From assembly GCF_002356295.1 (NCBI RefSeq), contig NZ_AP018042.1, forward strand, positions 620,001-684,000: a DNA stretch of 64,000 bases. Direction: 5' to 3'. Position numbers and translations under genes: made by a program. This DNA comes from Labilibaculum antarcticum. Its GTDB lineage: Bacteria; Bacteroidota; Bacteroidia; Bacteroidales; Marinifilaceae. This document shows positions 32,557 to 40,356 of the stretch, one piece after another; within the stretch, counting starts at the first letter, position 1, and every line of letters begins with the position of its first letter. The notes under the pieces are model-generated. The model saw nothing but the letters and a program-made list of their open reading frames with translations. It was not told the DNA's origin and did not search any database.

Positions 32557-33456
32557 CTAGCCGCAAATATGCTTCAATTCATTCTGTAGTGCTTTTTGCT
32601 TCTTTAGGCTTAGCCCAAATGAATCTAATAAATGAGAATTTTCTTTTAACTGAAGACAAGTAAGAATGCTTTGGCCCATTAATTCCTGTTTTTGCTTTTT
32701 AGTAAGCGTGTGTAGAATGGTAACGGGATACAAATGAAGTTCTTCAATGGTTTCTTTCAATCCTTTATTCCGGGGATAATCCCATGCCAAAAGATTCAAG
32801 CCACTACCTATTCCATATTGAATTGAATCATCAGAAAAGCGAGTATTTGTAACCACCCATCCTGTAAAGGAAAGACCTTTGTATTCGGGCATATTCTTTC
32901 TTTTATCGATAATATCGTTCACGCGGGAGCGAACATACAGTGGCACTTGAACGCTAACATGTTTTCCTTGATCTTTATGATATTTACATTCAACCAGATG
33001 TTGAGTGTTTTTGTGAGTTGCTATTACATCCATTTCGTGAGTAACACAAACACCATCTACCACCACTCCTACTTCAATATCAAAACCTTGTTTTTTGAAC
33101 AACTGTCCGATGAATTGCTCAAAAGGATATCCCGTTGGTCCCAATTCCATGATTGCTTTCTTCAAACGATAACGCATGGCCGAGGAACTTTCTTCTCGAC
33201 GCAAAACTGAAAAGGCCCTGGAATATATTTGTTTGGTTGTTACTCCCGTGAAAATCCACTCTTTGATATTCAAAAGAATTTTTTCTATTGCAAATGTACT
33301 TGCCCCGGCATTTTGCAATGACCGCTCTAACTTATCAATTTCAAAAGGCTCTTCATCACCCGAAGCCTTTTTTACAAGTATCAATTTACTATTGAAGGAA
33401 TTTGACTCCTTACTGTCTTTATTATTAATATTCACACACTGTTTCGGATTGTTCAT
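32557..33456 (-). CDS. ATP-cone / Mrr-like restriction endonuclease fusion
   Basis: A 299-residue protein. Residues about 25-110 form an ATP-cone, the nucleotide-sensing domain of ribonucleotide reductases and NrdR (ILVKKASGDEEPFEIDKLER, SLQNAG, REESSSAMRYRLKKAI). Residues about 115-235 form a PD-(D/E)XK nuclease of the Mrr/RecB type, with FEQFIGQLFKKQGFDIEVG, catalytic EMDVIA and VECKYH. A helical C-terminal tail follows. No methylase or helicase partner is adjacent; CorA lies upstream and a kinase downstream. A role in defence or DNA turnover gated by nucleotide levels is inference. Confidence 0.8.
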   Translation of the reverse strand: MNNPKQCVNINNKDSKESNSFNSKLILVKKASGDEEPFEIDKLERSLQNAGASTFAIEKILLNIKEWIFTGVTTKQIYSRAFSVLRREESSSAMRYRLKKAIMELGPTGYPFEQFIGQLFKKQGFDIEVGVVVDGVCVTHEMDVIATHKNTQHLVECKYHKDQGKHVSVQVPLYVRSRVNDIIDKRKNMPEYKGLSFTGWVVTNTRFSDDSIQYGIGSGLNLLAWDYPRNKGLKETIEELHLYPVTILHTLTKKQKQELMGQSILTCLQLKENSHLLDSFGLSLKKQKALQNELKHICG

Positions 33457-33566: not shown

Positions 33567-34637
33567 TCACAACCATTTCTTTTTTCTAAAATACCATATC
33601 ATTCCTACTGCTACTAAAATCATAATGGCAATTATACTGAAGTAGCCATATTTCCACTCCAGTTCGGGCATGTACTTAAAATTCATTCCGTAGACTCCGG
33701 CCAAAAAAGTAAGTGGAATAAAAATGGTTGCTATTAAAGTAAGCAACTTCATGGTTTTATTTAATTGATTGTTCTGTTCCGATTGGTGTGTATCACGAAC
33801 ATTTGAAAGGTAATCGCGCAGGTAATCCAACTGATCGATAACGAATAAAATATGATCCTGCGTATCCCGAAAAAACTTAACATTCTCATCAAGAAACAGG
33901 TCTGATTCACTCTGTATTAAAAGATCATAAGCCTCTTTTAAAGGTAATATAACACGTCGGGCCTTCATTATCTGTTTCTTAAAATCCTGAATTTTTCGTG
34001 GCACTAAATCAGAATTTTCATTTTCTATGAACTCCTCGAACTTAACCAGTTGATCGTTCCAATTTTCAATTAAATGAAAATAATTATCCACTATTGTATC
34101 TGCCACAGCAAAAAACAGGTAATCGACTCCTTTCGATCGTATTCTTCTTGTACTGTTTTCTAAACGACTGAGCAAAGAATCCAATACCGGATGATGCGTA
34201 TCCATAAATGAAATCACATAATTTTCGCCCAGAATGATGTTAATCGGAATGGACTGAAATTTATACTCTCCGGTTTTGGGAATCAGTAGTTTTAATGATA
34301 AAAAACTGTAATGGTCCAAATCCTCAAACTTGGGCCGTAAGTGCGAATTAAGAGCATCTTCCAAAGTTAGATTGTGAATATCTAGCTGATTCCCTAAATT
34401 CTCATAAGCTGGAATATCAATTCCTGAAAAAATAACCCAGGAAACCATTTCCTTATCTTTAAAATCATATTTAATATGATCTAAATCAGTCTTGTAATCC
34501 ACCGATTTAATCTCTTCCGAATTGTATTGTATTACCTGAACTGATGCAGACTCTATTTCTTTATATCCAATATGTAATAAAGTTCCAGGCGCCATTCCTG
34601 ATTTTTCAGAAATACGACTTGTTTTTTTCTTTACCAT
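33567..34637 (-). CDS. corA: CorA-type magnesium/cobalt channel
   Basis: A 356-residue CorA-family channel. The cytoplasmic domain (VSWVIFSGIDIPAYENLG, LTLEDALNSHLRPKFEDLDH) leads through a long coiled helix to two C-terminal TM segments. The selectivity loop is GVYGMNFKYMPELEWKYGY. The start at 34637 (MVKKKTSRIS) is preferred over 34679 because it leaves room for a promoter facing the divergent MscS gene. It shares this intergenic space with an osmotic channel, suggesting an ion-homeostasis neighbourhood. Confidence 0.9.
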   Translation of the reverse strand: MVKKKTSRISEKSGMAPGTLLHIGYKEIESASVQVIQYNSEEIKSVDYKTDLDHIKYDFKDKEMVSWVIFSGIDIPAYENLGNQLDIHNLTLEDALNSHLRPKFEDLDHYSFLSLKLLIPKTGEYKFQSIPINIILGENYVISFMDTHHPVLDSLLSRLENSTRRIRSKGVDYLFFAVADTIVDNYFHLIENWNDQLVKFEEFIENENSDLVPRKIQDFKKQIMKARRVILPLKEAYDLLIQSESDLFLDENVKFFRDTQDHILFVIDQLDYLRDYLSNVRDTHQSEQNNQLNKTMKLLTLIATIFIPLTFLAGVYGMNFKYMPELEWKYGYFSIIAIMILVAVGMIWYFRKKKWL

Positions 34638-34711
34638 GACTAAAATAGATAGGTTTAATTGTATCTTTAAATTAAACAATTCTCTTACTAATTAACCATT
34701 ATTTTTCAACA

Positions 34712-35599
34712 ATGATAGAAACATTTGAAGCTATTTTAATAAATCTTGGGATCGGCTATAAACTACTTTTTATTCTTATTACAATCGTATTGGGTTTTCT
34801 CATTTCCAAACTCATTCTGTTTTTCATGAATCGCATGTTGAAAAAAGCTTCCGATAAATTAAATGTTGATCCTACCAATTACAGTTTCTTAAAAAACGCT
34901 GTTAGTTTTCTGATTTTCATCGTAACAGTAATCATTATTTTTTATTCAATTCCTGAATTAAAAAGTGTTGGAATGAGTTTGATGGCAAGTGCCGGAATTT
35001 TTGCGGCGATTCTTGGTTTTGCATCTCAGCAAGCATTTTCAAATATTATAAGTGGTATTTTCATTGTTATATTTAAACCTTTTAGGGTTGGCGATTTTAT
35101 TAAAATTGGAGAATTGCACCTTGGTACGGTAGAAGACATTACTTTGCGACACACGGTGATTAATAACCCTGAAAATAGGAGGATCATTATTCCAAATTCG
35201 GTTATTAGTTCAGAAACCATTTTGAATTCTTCAATTACTGATCCCAAAATCTGCGCGTTCATAGAAATAGGAATCAGTTATCATTCCAACATCGATAAAG
35301 CGATTGAAATCATTCAAAATAAAGCATCTCATCATCCAAATTTTCACGACAACAGAACAGATGAAGAAAAAAGCGGAAATATTGATCAGGTAATTGTTAG
35401 AGTTATAAACCTTGGTGATTCGTGCATTACACTTAGAGCCTATGTTTGGGCCGAAAACTCGAGCAAAGCTTTTGAGATGAAGTGCGATTTATTTAAATCG
35501 ATTAAAGAGCAATTTGATAAAGACGGAATCGAAATTCCATTTCCTCATCAAACAGTCTATCTTCGACAAGAGGAACCCTTAAAAATCACTCAAATTTAG
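34712..35599 (+). CDS. MscS-family mechanosensitive channel (first copy)
   Basis: A 295-residue small-conductance channel. Two N-terminal helices are followed by the pore-lining TM3 (GMSLMASAGIFAAILGFASQ), then the beta domain (IFKPFRVGDFIKIGE, EDITLRHTVI, RRIIIPNS) and a C-terminal alpha/beta vestibule. It opens on membrane tension to release solutes. It is divergent from corA and convergent with the second MscS gene, with a hairpin and a CTTGT-rich satellite between them. Confidence 0.93.
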   Translation: MIETFEAILINLGIGYKLLFILITIVLGFLISKLILFFMNRMLKKASDKLNVDPTNYSFLKNAVSFLIFIVTVIIIFYSIPELKSVGMSLMASAGIFAAILGFASQQAFSNIISGIFIVIFKPFRVGDFIKIGELHLGTVEDITLRHTVINNPENRRIIIPNSVISSETILNSSITDPKICAFIEIGISYHSNIDKAIEIIQNKASHHPNFHDNRTDEEKSGNIDQVIVRVINLGDSCITLRAYVWAENSSKAFEMKCDLFKSIKEQFDKDGIEIPFPHQTVYLRQEEPLKITQI

Positions 35600-35689: not shown

Positions 35690-35955
35690 CTTTTTTTGCA
35701 ACTTGTTACTTGTTCCTTGATACTTACCACCTGTCACTTGCTGCTTATCCCTTGTCCCTTGTTCCCTTGTTACTTGTCTCTTGCTCCCTTGTTACTTATT
35801 ACTTTACTTGTTACTTGTCCCTTGTTCCCTTGTTACTTGTCTCTTGCTCCCTTGTTACTTATTACTTTACTTGTTACTTGTCCCTTGCTCCTTGTTACTT
35901 TTTAATTGGCACTTGTTACTTGTCACTTGTCCCTTTTTACTTGGTACTTGTCACT
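35690..35955. repeat. CTTGT/ACTTGT pyrimidine-rich satellite
   Basis: About 265 bp consist of loosely repeated ACTTGT, CCTTGT and TACTTG words. A near-perfect 63-bp tandem duplication lies inside it (35761-35823 and 35824-35886). The plus strand is strongly pyrimidine-biased. Open frames here are low-complexity artefacts. It fills the space between two convergent MscS genes. Confidence 0.9.
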
Positions 35956-35960
35956 TCCTA

Positions 35961-36920
35961 TTAAATAGAATTCTCCGAGCTAAGAATCTCACAATCCAAC
36001 AATTCTTTGATTACATTTTCAGTTAATTCACTTTTGAAGGCAAACTCAAACCGAATGTCCATCACATAAGCTTTTAGCCGCATTTTGTAGCAAAGCTTAT
36101 CGTACTTGATATCATTCACGAAAATAACAGCGATCGGCTTTGCTAAATACACATAATTTGAAATCTTGGCTACTTCAATGGCAATTTTTCGTACCTGATG
36201 TGTATCGATGGTAATTGGCAAATAAATTTCGGCAACCACCTGACAATTCGTCTCGCCCGAATTAGAATTGGAAATAGACTGGTTCATCAGTTCTCCGTTG
36301 GGCAGAGTAACAATTGAATCATCAGCAGTTTGCACCCGGGTCGATCGCAAGGACATGTCGAGAACCTCACCATAAGTGCTTCCCACTTCAATTTTATCAC
36401 CAATTTTAAACGGACGGTCGATAATGATCACAAAACCACCAAATATATTCTTTAAAATATCCTGAGCGGCAAAACCTACGGCAACACCCACAGATGCACC
36501 AAAAGCAATCAAGGATCCCAATGGTGGATTAAATATTCCCTTCACGATAATATAAGAAATTATCATCCAGCAAATAATTTTCACTACCGGCACAATGGCC
36601 TTCCCTTTCACCCTCCTGTCCGGGCTTTTTTCAGACCAAATCTCGATGGTTCGGGTTAAAAAACGAACTATAAAATATCCAATTAAGATAAAAACCAAAG
36701 CCCAAAAGATCTTCGAAAAAGAAATGATATTTGAAACATCCGGAGCATCTAATTTCTCACCTATTGATTTAATTACGTCATCGGTGGAGGAAACAACCGA
36801 ATCGCCTTTTATCACTTCAGTCTTTGCAATGGAATTGGCAATCTGATTCTGCGATAGTAAGGTTTGTGTACAAATAAAAAGGCTACCAGTAAACAGCAGT
36901 ATACTTATGAGTTTTTTCAT
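35961..36920 (-). CDS. MscS-family mechanosensitive channel (second copy, operon with P-loop protein)
   Basis: A 319-residue channel with a signal-like N-terminus ending in LLSQNQ, so its N-terminal domain is exported. Two helices (about 70-90 and 108-128) precede a pore helix (LIAFGASVGVAVGFAAQDIL). The beta domain follows (IIDRPFKIGDKIEVGSTYG, LRSTRVQTADDSIVTLPNGE). It begins 34 bp after the stop of the 968-residue protein, so the two are almost certainly co-transcribed. That pairing suggests a regulated channel. Confidence 0.92.
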   Translation of the reverse strand: MKKLISILLFTGSLFICTQTLLSQNQIANSIAKTEVIKGDSVVSSTDDVIKSIGEKLDAPDVSNIISFSKIFWALVFILIGYFIVRFLTRTIEIWSEKSPDRRVKGKAIVPVVKIICWMIISYIIVKGIFNPPLGSLIAFGASVGVAVGFAAQDILKNIFGGFVIIIDRPFKIGDKIEVGSTYGEVLDMSLRSTRVQTADDSIVTLPNGELMNQSISNSNSGETNCQVVAEIYLPITIDTHQVRKIAIEVAKISNYVYLAKPIAVIFVNDIKYDKLCYKMRLKAYVMDIRFEFAFKSELTENVIKELLDCEILSSENSI

Positions 36921-36954
36921 TTTATCTTGTAATTATTTTTATTCTAAAACGTGT

Positions 36955-39861
36955 TTAGTGTATGTAGTTCAAAACAGCCAGGTGATTCGCAATCTGCCTG
37001 TAAACCAATGGATTTATAAGATAAACCTCATTCCTTTTAATTAAAATTCCATCGTCGGTAAAGACCATTAAATGAGCAAAACTTTCCTCCTTTTCCCAAT
37101 CAAAAATAGCTGCATGCTCCTCCAGCAAAAGACCTCCGTGAAGAACCAAGGCATGCAAAGTGGTTATTTGAGAAGGACTTAGCGTGTTGAAAAAAGAATA
37201 CTCTAAATGTTTGTACTGCAAATAGAAATTATTGTCCTCGACACTTATCACCGATCGCATCCAGAACAACAAGGCCAATGAAAGATTGTTTTCAGCAAAT
37301 TTGTACAAGCGGTTAAAATAATCTTCGTGCAAATAAGTCTGTTTCTCTGCCTCCGACATTCTTTTATAAGATCGTTTCGGATGAAATTCTGTCGGGGGTA
37401 AAAAGTTAAGTTTGAAGCCGCTAAACTTATGCCGTTTAATAATTATCTCGGTTAGCTGCTCCTTATTCAAGCTATCCAGGTTTACAACATATCCAAAATA
37501 ATCACTCATCTTTAAGGTATAATCAAGGTACTTGAATGTGTAAAGCAAACAGGTACTCAACCAATAAATACGCGAATTGGTTTGTGATATCAACCTGAAA
37601 AACTGCGATAGATTTTTAAAACCATGACGTTTCCGAAGAAATAATTGATGAACATTCTCAATAACAATTATTCTACGCCCCTTCAGCTCTTGAATTTTTT
37701 CTATCAATTCGTCAATCGATTCAAATTTTAAATCTTTGAAAACAGTTTTCAAAAACAGAATAAAATCTTCTTCACTGCTAATTTTACGATCCAAACTGAA
37801 TCTGTAAAAAGGATATTGATGCCCAAATTTATCTTCAAAAACATTCACTACCGAAGTAATTCCACTGCCATTTTCTCCCACCAAACAAGTCGGTGCAAAC
37901 TTTGCATTTGTCCAGTTGCTATAAGCAATTTCAAGTTGTTGAATAACCTTAGGTCTCTCAATTCGAAATTTTGCATTTGCTATGGGCGCAATTTTAAATA
38001 AGCGTTGGTACATTAAGGGCAAACGTGCAATTGCTATTTCTGTTTCCGACAAGTAATTGGATAATTCACTGCCAATGGTTTCCTTTTTTTCGGATAAGCC
38101 CAAAACTTTACGATATGCCGTATATTTTAATCGGGCCTGCTTATTCAAATCAAGAATTCGCGCCTGAGATCTACTCAAAACATCTTTTAAAAAAGACAAG
38201 CCGTTAATCAGAAGATTTTTAGCATTTCGGATTCTTTTTTTCCGAATCATCTCCGTCTGCTTCTGATCTAAATTATCTGGTAAGATAGCAGAGCTAATCT
38301 CTGCTATAAAGCTGCTATTTATCTTGTTGATTTGGTCTATTACCTCTCTTGACAGCTCTACATTGTATTGCCTGTTTTCTTTTGCTTTCTGAACAGCCCG
38401 CTCAATACCTTCCCCAAATTCCGAAAGCTGATTGATTCCCCCCTCAAGATCCTCGGCATTGTAATATTCCAAGGCATACTCCACGATTCCAGACAATTCA
38501 CTTGTATTGGATAAAGTCTTCTGCATGCCATTTATTAAAGCCTCCTTCTGAATAAAAAGCGGATTCTCAATCGATTCATTTAAACAACCACTCACAATAT
38601 CCATCACATTTGTTTCCCGAAGCTTAGGGACTCTTGAATTTTTATTCCAGCCTTTTCGGGAGGGAAGTAAATAACTCGATGGTATTGATTCAATTTCTTT
38701 GATGCAGTTTGATGTCAAAAGATCAAAATGCAGCGAAAAATCCGTTTCCATTAACTTCTCAATGTAATTGGGAATTCGCTCAGCAAGTAATTGTTTCGAC
38801 AGCAAATTATCCTGAACATCTTGCAGGTCGCTCTCGTTCTCAATTTTTTCAGACGCTTTCTCCAGATTACTCACAAAAAAAGCATCCGATGCGAGCAAAA
38901 CCTCATCGAGAATGCTTTTAATCTTAACTTCTGATTGATTAAAGATATTGGTAATGGCTAAATTCGAAAATCGAACTTCGTAAACAAGTCGCCAATGCTC
39001 AAACAAAGCAAATGCCCGGCTGCTGTAATTGGCAAATAATTGCTGCTGATTCTTTAAAATCTTACTTGCTCTTTTAGTCAACTTTCGCGATTGAATCTTA
39101 CTGGAAGGAAACTCTAAAGTACCTGCTTTTGCATGCAATTCGGCATACAATAAATCCAGAGCCTCTTTCATCTCTTTAAAATGCAATTCAATTTCAATCT
39201 TTTTGGCTCCTATCTGCTGGCTTAGTTCTGTTAACTGTTGAGTAAAATCATTTTCAATCCATTTGCTATTTACAAGCAGGTTAGCTTCTATTTGTTTATC
39301 GATTTCCTTTATCGATTGAAAAATATTCTGTCGAAATGATAGAACATCCTCAACAATAGGATTCGCATCTTCTAACAAATGCACAAAATAGATCAATTCA
39401 GCCAACTGTTGACGATGAATTTTATGCTTCCAGAAATTTTTAGGTATTGCTTCCTTTTTAATTAATTTCCGAAATAAATTCCTGACACTCAGCAATCCCC
39501 AATTGATTTTAAGGAAGAACAATTTCCCCAACTTTCTTGTTTTCAAGACTATTCCATCCGAAGGCAAAGCATAAAACCGATCCTTATCCTGAACCTCATC
39601 AACCTGCTCCTCAAAACCAGAAATATATTCCCTAATCTCTGCAAACTGATCGAAAAATTCAGAAACATCAAACTTATTTATCTCATGAAAATTATCGTGA
39701 ATATATTTTTTAAATTCCTCACTACTCTTTCGGTAGCCGGATAAATCATCAGAGATATCCTTGCTTTTTTCAATCGAACCGATCGTTTCCTGTAAAGTAG
39801 ATATCATGCTCTCAACGGGATGAAGAGAGCTTAGTAATTTGGATGTGTATTTGCTGTACAT
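36955..39861 (-). CDS. Large coiled-coil protein with degenerate P-loop ATPase domain
   Basis: A 968-residue protein of no recognised family. Residues 1-600 are helical with long coiled-coil segments and no clear TM helix. Residues about 650-860 resemble an AAA/STAND P-loop domain: the Walker A position reads CLVGENGSGITS, with Ile where Lys is essential, and the Walker B-like strand is RRIIVIENVHQLF. The C-terminus (LSPSQITTLHALVLHGGLLL to the end) looks like a winged helix. It is upstream of and probably co-transcribed with an MscS channel. A scaffold or non-hydrolysing nucleotide sensor controlling the channel is inference. Confidence 0.7.
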   Translation of the reverse strand: MYSKYTSKLLSSLHPVESMISTLQETIGSIEKSKDISDDLSGYRKSSEEFKKYIHDNFHEINKFDVSEFFDQFAEIREYISGFEEQVDEVQDKDRFYALPSDGIVLKTRKLGKLFFLKINWGLLSVRNLFRKLIKKEAIPKNFWKHKIHRQQLAELIYFVHLLEDANPIVEDVLSFRQNIFQSIKEIDKQIEANLLVNSKWIENDFTQQLTELSQQIGAKKIEIELHFKEMKEALDLLYAELHAKAGTLEFPSSKIQSRKLTKRASKILKNQQQLFANYSSRAFALFEHWRLVYEVRFSNLAITNIFNQSEVKIKSILDEVLLASDAFFVSNLEKASEKIENESDLQDVQDNLLSKQLLAERIPNYIEKLMETDFSLHFDLLTSNCIKEIESIPSSYLLPSRKGWNKNSRVPKLRETNVMDIVSGCLNESIENPLFIQKEALINGMQKTLSNTSELSGIVEYALEYYNAEDLEGGINQLSEFGEGIERAVQKAKENRQYNVELSREVIDQINKINSSFIAEISSAILPDNLDQKQTEMIRKKRIRNAKNLLINGLSFLKDVLSRSQARILDLNKQARLKYTAYRKVLGLSEKKETIGSELSNYLSETEIAIARLPLMYQRLFKIAPIANAKFRIERPKVIQQLEIAYSNWTNAKFAPTCLVGENGSGITSVVNVFEDKFGHQYPFYRFSLDRKISSEEDFILFLKTVFKDLKFESIDELIEKIQELKGRRIIVIENVHQLFLRKRHGFKNLSQFFRLISQTNSRIYWLSTCLLYTFKYLDYTLKMSDYFGYVVNLDSLNKEQLTEIIIKRHKFSGFKLNFLPPTEFHPKRSYKRMSEAEKQTYLHEDYFNRLYKFAENNLSLALLFWMRSVISVEDNNFYLQYKHLEYSFFNTLSPSQITTLHALVLHGGLLLEEHAAIFDWEKEESFAHLMVFTDDGILIKRNEVYLINPLVYRQIANHLAVLNYIH

Positions 39862-39985: not shown

Positions 39986-40356
39986 TTTTACTTGGATGAC
40001 TAAAATCACCACGCATATGAGACTTTTTTTTGCTTGGTGAGCTCAAATCGCCACGCATATAAGACAACTTCCTGATTGGTGGGCTCATCTGTAACTCATA
40101 CGCGACTTCCTTTTACTTGGTGGACTCATATGAAACTCATGCGAGACTTTCTTTTACTTGGTGGACTCATCTGAAACTCATGCGAGACTTTCTTTTACTT
40201 GGTGGCCTCATCTGAAACTCATACGCGACTTCCTTTTACTTGGTGGACTCATATGAAACTCATGCGGAACTTTCTTTTACTTGGTGGTCTCATCTGAAAC
40301 ACATATGAGACATTTTTTTGCTTGATGAGCTCATATGAAACTCATACGGGACATTT
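39986..40356. repeat. 41-bp tandem repeat array, about nine copies
   Basis: Units begin with (T)TTTACTTGGTGG and contain CTCATNTGAAACTCATRCGNGAC. Unit starts are near 39986, 40028, 40070, 40111, 40152, 40193, 40234, 40275 and 40316; the last five spacings are exactly 41 bp. The first copies are more diverged than the central ones. No frame is open across the array. It follows the start of the 968-residue gene on the minus strand. Confidence 0.9.

Follow-up and report, generated by a model that had tools for sequence, protein, structure and literature searches.

A P-loop protein without the Walker A lysine and its MscS neighbour in Labilibaculum antarcticum: one version of a putative ion- and turgor-control module of Bacteroidota

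MscS is the textbook case of a channel that works as a valve governed by membrane tension alone. A locus in Labilibaculum antarcticum, of the phylum Bacteroidota, raises the question of why the gene for such a channel should be tied to that of a giant protein whose phosphate-binding loop (P-loop) lacks its Walker A lysine. The locus lies in a stretch of 64,000 nucleotides (assembly GCF_002356295.1, contig NZ_AP018042.1, positions 620,001 to 684,000), referred to here as the window, within a genome of 5.7 Mb in one contig. The gene of the 968-residue giant (36955..39861, minus strand) ends 34 bp (36921..36954, minus strand) before the gene of a 319-residue MscS channel (35961..36920, minus strand). 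With a probability of roughly 0.6, the two genes represent an undescribed ion- and turgor-control module of Bacteroidota, one version among several, whose cytosolic P-loop protein controls MscS; ATP hydrolysis has probably been lost in the lineage.

The pair and its conservation

The giant has no transmembrane segments in a simple hydropathy scan, the method behind all such counts given here, and is therefore probably cytosolic. Its P-loop core spans about residues 596-968 of the open reading frame. When the core is aligned with those of relatives, GENGSGITS (residues 662-670; 37852..37878, minus strand) falls on their P-loop and IIVIEN (residues 731-736; 37654..37671, minus strand) on their Walker B position. 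Ile668 (37858-37860, minus strand) occupies the place of the lysine, Glu735 the first acidic position of the Walker-B-like strand and Asn736 the place of the catalytic glutamate. The spacing of the two genes and both motifs had been picked out in the initial annotation, and open reading frames and alignments confirm them. No Pfam or NCBIfam model matches the window giant above its cut-off, the best being AAA_22 with an E-value of 0.09, whereas some relatives do exceed the cut-offs (locus L094 with AAA_22, 28.9 against 27 bits; L123 with PF00004, 24.2 against 21.2 bits), and profile searches align the window core with relatives that have the canonical GxxxxGK[ST]. On these sequence grounds the P-loop assignment of the window giant is real. 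The giants thus share a P-loop and a Walker-B-like strand with AAA+ and STAND proteins (AAA_22, AAA_16, PF00004), two groups that these matches do not distinguish; the window giant differs from both in the missing lysine, the sub-cut-off scores and the pairing with a channel. A sequence search of the PDB with the giant gave no match, and another search only two, both of them weak and coiled-coil-like (E 0.55 and 7.6).

The 319-residue partner is assigned to a giant-tied subfamily of MscS by PF00924 (E 4e-22; 78.6 bits against a cut-off of 20.2), alignments and co-occurrence. It shares the beta-domain and the pore with MscS and YnaI of Escherichia coli, whose PDB entries are matched by profile at 1.5e-18 and about 1e-15, respectively. 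It differs from them in an N-terminus that looks by eye like a signal peptide, in a C-terminal segment conserved in alignments of the subfamily, and in the genetic tie to a P-loop giant.

Of the named relatives found, two Labilibaculum records and a metagenome-assembled genome of the Marinifilaceae are nearest, with giants 77-79% identical to that of the window. Between the window giant and a 79% identical orthologue, the ratio of non-synonymous to synonymous substitution rates (dN/dS) is ∼0.14; among the giants of L001-L003 it is ∼0.08 in the P-loop region against 0.14 overall. The giant is under purifying selection that is strongest in the P-loop region, and its gene is therefore a working one. 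Shuffled versions gave more promoter- and terminator-like sites than the real sequence.

Whether the two genes stay together in other genomes, the check that the initial annotation had called for, can be answered at several taxonomic depths. Among the P-loop-core loci sampled across the phylum, 100 of 112 have an MscS gene as a neighbour on the same strand. Of these neighbours, 96 were recognised by an MscS profile and four by Pfam (L112, L096, L114 and L115), the latter being hidden by a long open-reading-frame start or unseen by the profile; for the count, twenty short loci were exchanged for longer copies (L125-L144). The profile-detected neighbours lie downstream of the core gene in 91 cases and upstream in 5. 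The gap in the downstream pairs ranges from -11 to 189 bp, with a median of 3, and is negative in 24; one clade has the gene order reversed and keeps the pairing. Four of the remaining 12 loci (L026, L041, L068 and L117) are cut off by the ends of the available sequence. The partner profiles are not independent evidence, because they were built from such neighbours; PF00924 is above its cut-off in all 20 partners scanned, the window's and 19/19 from relatives. Since the whole window genome holds only eight PF00924 matches, chance adjacency at the observed rate is out of the question.

Within the family, relatives of the giant turned up in 15 of 56 genomes, the window's included, when the window protein served as query. 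Every one of the 15 full-length giants is followed by an MscS gene, which at L016 is split into two open reading frames. Among 52 family genomes, 15 carry both the giant and the MscS subfamily (threshold E 1e-80 or better), 36 carry neither (their best other MscS match is 1.9e-23) and one, G026, carries a broken MscS only. Giant and MscS are therefore present or absent together in the family, and the linkage that the initial annotation made the touchstone of its proposal holds at both depths. In G026, decayed pieces of the same MscS subfamily lie at two places (L145, L147) and the giant is undetectable; a recent loss of the pair is possible there.

In the order sample of 393 genomes, where type-I giants were separated from weaker matches by a cut that we set at 1e-100 or better, 15 have both genes, one the giant only (G164; 1.5e-185, 283 bases from a contig end) and one an MscS fragment only (G381, at a contig end). 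Profile searches matched 48/393 genomes of the order, 26/395 of the class and 49/247 of the phylum; these samples are draws from larger groups, and the 26 include weak, probably unrelated matches (E 1e-6 to 1e-3). Outside Bacteroidota the coverage consisted of a genome-contig scan suited to close relatives and of plasmid and phage collections.

Several rows were removed before comparison: duplicates or a non-relative (L002, L018-L020, L050, L076, L124), short pieces with a P-loop that probably come from unrelated proteins (L071, L072, L075) and two rows without a core match (L073, L074). From the order list of 55 places, 25 weaker or second pieces were left out, as were, from the phylum list, three places in G999, those in G930 and G985, and second giant pieces. 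The quick tree was also built without L004, L006, L011, L013, L065, L067, L068, L097, L100 and L101, and only five type II rows were kept in the careful tree. Type I cores were divided from types II and III by length, motif and tree, and the window group of 38 cores is a quick-tree clade (34 rows, SH-aLRT support 95) with its near-duplicates.

A phosphate loop without its lysine

The Walker A lysine is present in all 31 type II/III cores and in 35/81 type I cores. A lysine in most homologues, which the initial annotation would have taken for a sign of a local mutation, is thus what the wider family has (66/112); in the window group 34/38 cores are without it, so the loss is not local. The loss is lineage-wide, whereas the isoleucine itself is not conserved, the position being M, L, A, V, T, S, N, R or K elsewhere. 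The 46 type I cores without lysine have I (11), A (9), R (9), V (6), M (3), T (3), L (2), S (2) or N (1); the 15 full-length family giants have I (6), A (4), M (2), L (2) or V (1). A lysine-bearing ancestor is suggested by the type II outgroup, in which the lysine is universal. The careful tree leaves the base of the window group unresolved, so that one loss with regains and several losses fit alike; the fewest changes required are five on the careful tree and six on the quick one.

Without the Walker A lysine, hydrolysis is unlikely in P-loop enzymes. The window giant departs from the canonical motifs twice, with Ile668 in Walker A and with E735-N736 in place of the DE of the Walker B pattern hhhhDE. 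Taken together, the missing lysine and the asparagine at the second Walker B acid make it most likely, judging from the sequence, that the window protein does not hydrolyse ATP. The first acidic position of Walker B is Glu in 69/81 type I cores. The residue after it is N, G or S in 35/35 lysine-bearing type I cores and, among those without lysine, N, D, S, G or H in at least 44/46 (the five commonest letters), with D in 6/46. As the second acid is mostly replaced throughout type I, hydrolysis may already have been weak in many of these cores before the lysine was lost.

A link between the lysine and a Walker B aspartate was considered and rejected: the four lysine-bearing members of the window group all have Asp, and the wider set breaks the pattern, since Glu is commonest (29/35) in lysine-bearing type I cores and L034 has Asp without lysine.

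The giant could be a structural adaptor that gathers MscS into clusters or anchors it to other machinery of the cell, nucleotide being irrelevant in this lineage. That nine different residues, most of them aliphatic or small, stand in for the lysine would suit such an adaptor, as would the long helices drawn before residue 590 in a full-length AlphaFold model of low confidence. The rest of the loop speaks otherwise. The 46 type I cores without lysine keep G667 (46), S/T669 (46), S/T670 (46) and G665 (44), and the two Ser/Thr are stricter in them than in the lysine-bearing type I cores (32 and 30 of 35). The loop has therefore not simply decayed, and a pure scaffold would not need it; its retention points to a role in binding or switching. 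Nor is the long N-terminal part what the giants have in common: short ones of 440-466 residues that are mainly core are MscS-paired as well (L095-L097, L099-L102, L106), which leaves the core as the constant element. A purely structural adaptor is accordingly unlikely, at perhaps one chance in four.

The opposite possibility, that the giant is an active NTPase with a non-canonical loop in which Arg810 or Arg620/Arg869 substitutes for the lysine, is more doubtful still. Arg810 (37432..37434, minus strand) is invariant in 112/112 aligned cores, the Ser/Thr after the loop are kept, and Arg itself replaces the lysine in nine cores. Residue 620 is R or K in 46/46 and residue 869 R in 44/46 of the cores without lysine, and neither is conserved in type II; they are, however, also common in lysine-bearing type I cores (26 and 21 of 35) and may be no more than a type I trait. 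The Walker B of the window giant, E-N and not D-E, further disfavours activity.

Fusions to salt transporters and the surroundings of the pair

The core and its MscS partner recur in five architectures. In the window (A), a core protein of ∼1000 residues is followed by MscS. In the second (B; L108, L110), a Na+/H+-exchanger domain is fused to the core in open frames of 1433-1455 residues (PF00999, 3e-20 and 4e-20), followed by MscS and then a TrkH-family gene (PF02386, 1e-35 and 1e-41), which in L110 is KtrB-like (KtrB, 7e-59). The giant of L115 has 11 transmembrane segments with no Pfam match to them. In the third (C; L125-L138, L141-L143), an SLC12-like domain is fused to the core in proteins of 1638-1740 residues. 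Seventeen of the 20 giants fetched have 10-12 N-terminal transmembrane segments, and in 15 of the 17 an MscS of 217-253 residues comes next; SLC12-type PF00324 is found in 5/5 N-termini tested, and that of L136 matches NKCC1 at 4e-64, whereas the best amino-acid transporter reaches 1e-5. In the fourth (D), a core protein of 786-814 residues, an MscS of 237-244 residues and a Na+/H+ exchanger follow one another, both in L144 and in a second set in the window genome itself. This second set (L123, 596-5022) has gaps of 0 and 5 bp and an 814-residue P-loop protein with the lysine; its 237-residue MscS-like protein is divergent and outside the eight PF00924 matches of the genome. In the fifth (E; L112-L114, L116, L118-L120), MscS lies upstream of the core protein. 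The osmotic role that the initial annotation had put forward fits these fusions and adjacencies to SLC12, Na+/H+-exchanger and TrkH/KtrB proteins.

Beyond its MscS, the window pair is bordered by a second, canonical and convergent MscS gene (34712..35599, plus strand; PF00924, PF21082) and by a CorA-like Mg2+ transporter gene (33567..34679, minus strand; PF01544, 1.3e-69). Both are neighbours of the pair in the window and in 3/3 long genus loci; most genus loci have a relative of the second MscS there, as do L008-L010 and L051-L053, which belong to other genera. Two genes beyond the MscS, a nuclease-type protein (32557-33456) has ATP-cone-like and Mrr/Card1-like matches. Its relatives occur in L018-L020, and in the distant L025 one directly adjoins MscS. 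Between the convergent MscS genes, 35701-35956 is a tandem array of a 7-bp unit, ACTTGTT, with about 37 copies at 70% match and an inner 63-bp unit; upstream of the giant, 40076-40352 is a 41/123-bp tandem array.

An NTPase combined with a membrane effector is a familiar logic of defence, and the initial annotation had named defence as a possible role. Anti-phage defence, with the giant as NTPase sensor and MscS as the membrane-permeabilising effector, is nonetheless very improbable: one relative weakly matches a STAND model and BrxC/D below cut-off and the nuclease gene matches PADLOC CARF-PDDEXK (E 5e-8), but the best PADLOC match of the giant itself has an E-value of 0.035 and the paired MscS has none, the C-terminal 379 residues of the giant are unmatched by tblastn in 72,556 plasmid and 50,697 phage records, the synteny with CorA and the second MscS is kept in the genus and partly beyond it, and the relatives are fused to salt transporters.

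A putative ion- and turgor-control module

The core and MscS are constant and the salt transporters variable, and on the simplest reading the core controls MscS, and also the transporter where one is fused to it. The cytosolic P-loop protein, with its long N-terminal part, would act on its own MscS, probably on the cytosolic part of the channel, and would set the opening threshold or the assembly of MscS according to nucleotide or ionic state. Where an SLC12 cotransporter or a Na+/H+-exchanger domain is joined to the core, as in the sister versions, a single controller would govern both salt transport and MscS-mediated release. The protein of the window lineage may bind nucleotide passively as a sensor, or its loop may be a fixed structural switch. 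What the sequences show directly is the adjacency, the shared presence and absence, the fusions, the repeated lack of the lysine in a retained loop and the purifying selection; the contact with MscS, its gating by a catalytically dead NTPase as put forward in the initial annotation, the loss of hydrolysis and the signal sensed are inferences.

Some observations weigh against this regulatory module. Adjacency could come from co-regulation alone, and the sequence examined shows no MscS beside the cores L039, L060, L062, L065-L067 (for these six, on the downstream side), L127 and L130. The lysine in 35/81 type I cores means that its loss is unnecessary for pairing. The association of lysine with a Walker B aspartate holds within one group and is non-significant over tree-independent pairs. 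AlphaFold models of the C-terminal core and of the full giant have a mean confidence (pLDDT) of 35, with four close sequences as input.

Among known systems, the nearest in idea are SUR-Kir6 (KATP) and KtrA-KtrB, in which a channel or transporter for ions is under the control of a cytosolic, nucleotide-responsive subunit; the variant operon of L110 holds a KtrB-like gene. The giants differ from these in Pfam tables that hold no RCK match and ABC matches only below cut-off, and in that the channel is MscS. The N-terminal domain of a type II relative resembles SLC12 proteins (NKCC1, KCC) by sequence; it differs from them in being fused to a P-loop core with an MscS gene after it, and the window giant has no transporter domain at all. 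No P-loop/MscS or SLC12/MscS system is described in the abstract openings searched, a scope that leaves aside most subscription papers and all preprints, and term look-ups found no match in PMC7159879 and PMC8195603. The parts belong to known superfamilies; what would be new is the module of P-loop regulator, MscS and salt transporter, with a putative function.

A broader proposal, which we hold more tentatively and at somewhat less than even odds, is that of a phylum-wide cell-volume controller. In it, a family of P-loop regulators would couple MscS valves to SLC12, Na+/H+-exchanger and TrkH/KtrB proteins, some lineages having a pseudo-NTPase without lysine whose phosphate loop senses nucleotide or ionic state, so that MscS would be ligand-controlled and not governed by tension alone. 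The naturally occurring versions with and without the lysine allow comparison. If the dedicated, co-inherited P-loop partner is truly a regulator, some MscS channels would be under the control of cell state; and if the SLC12 fusion acts as proposed, it would be a bacterial counterpart of animal cell-volume control, built from one polypeptide and one channel.

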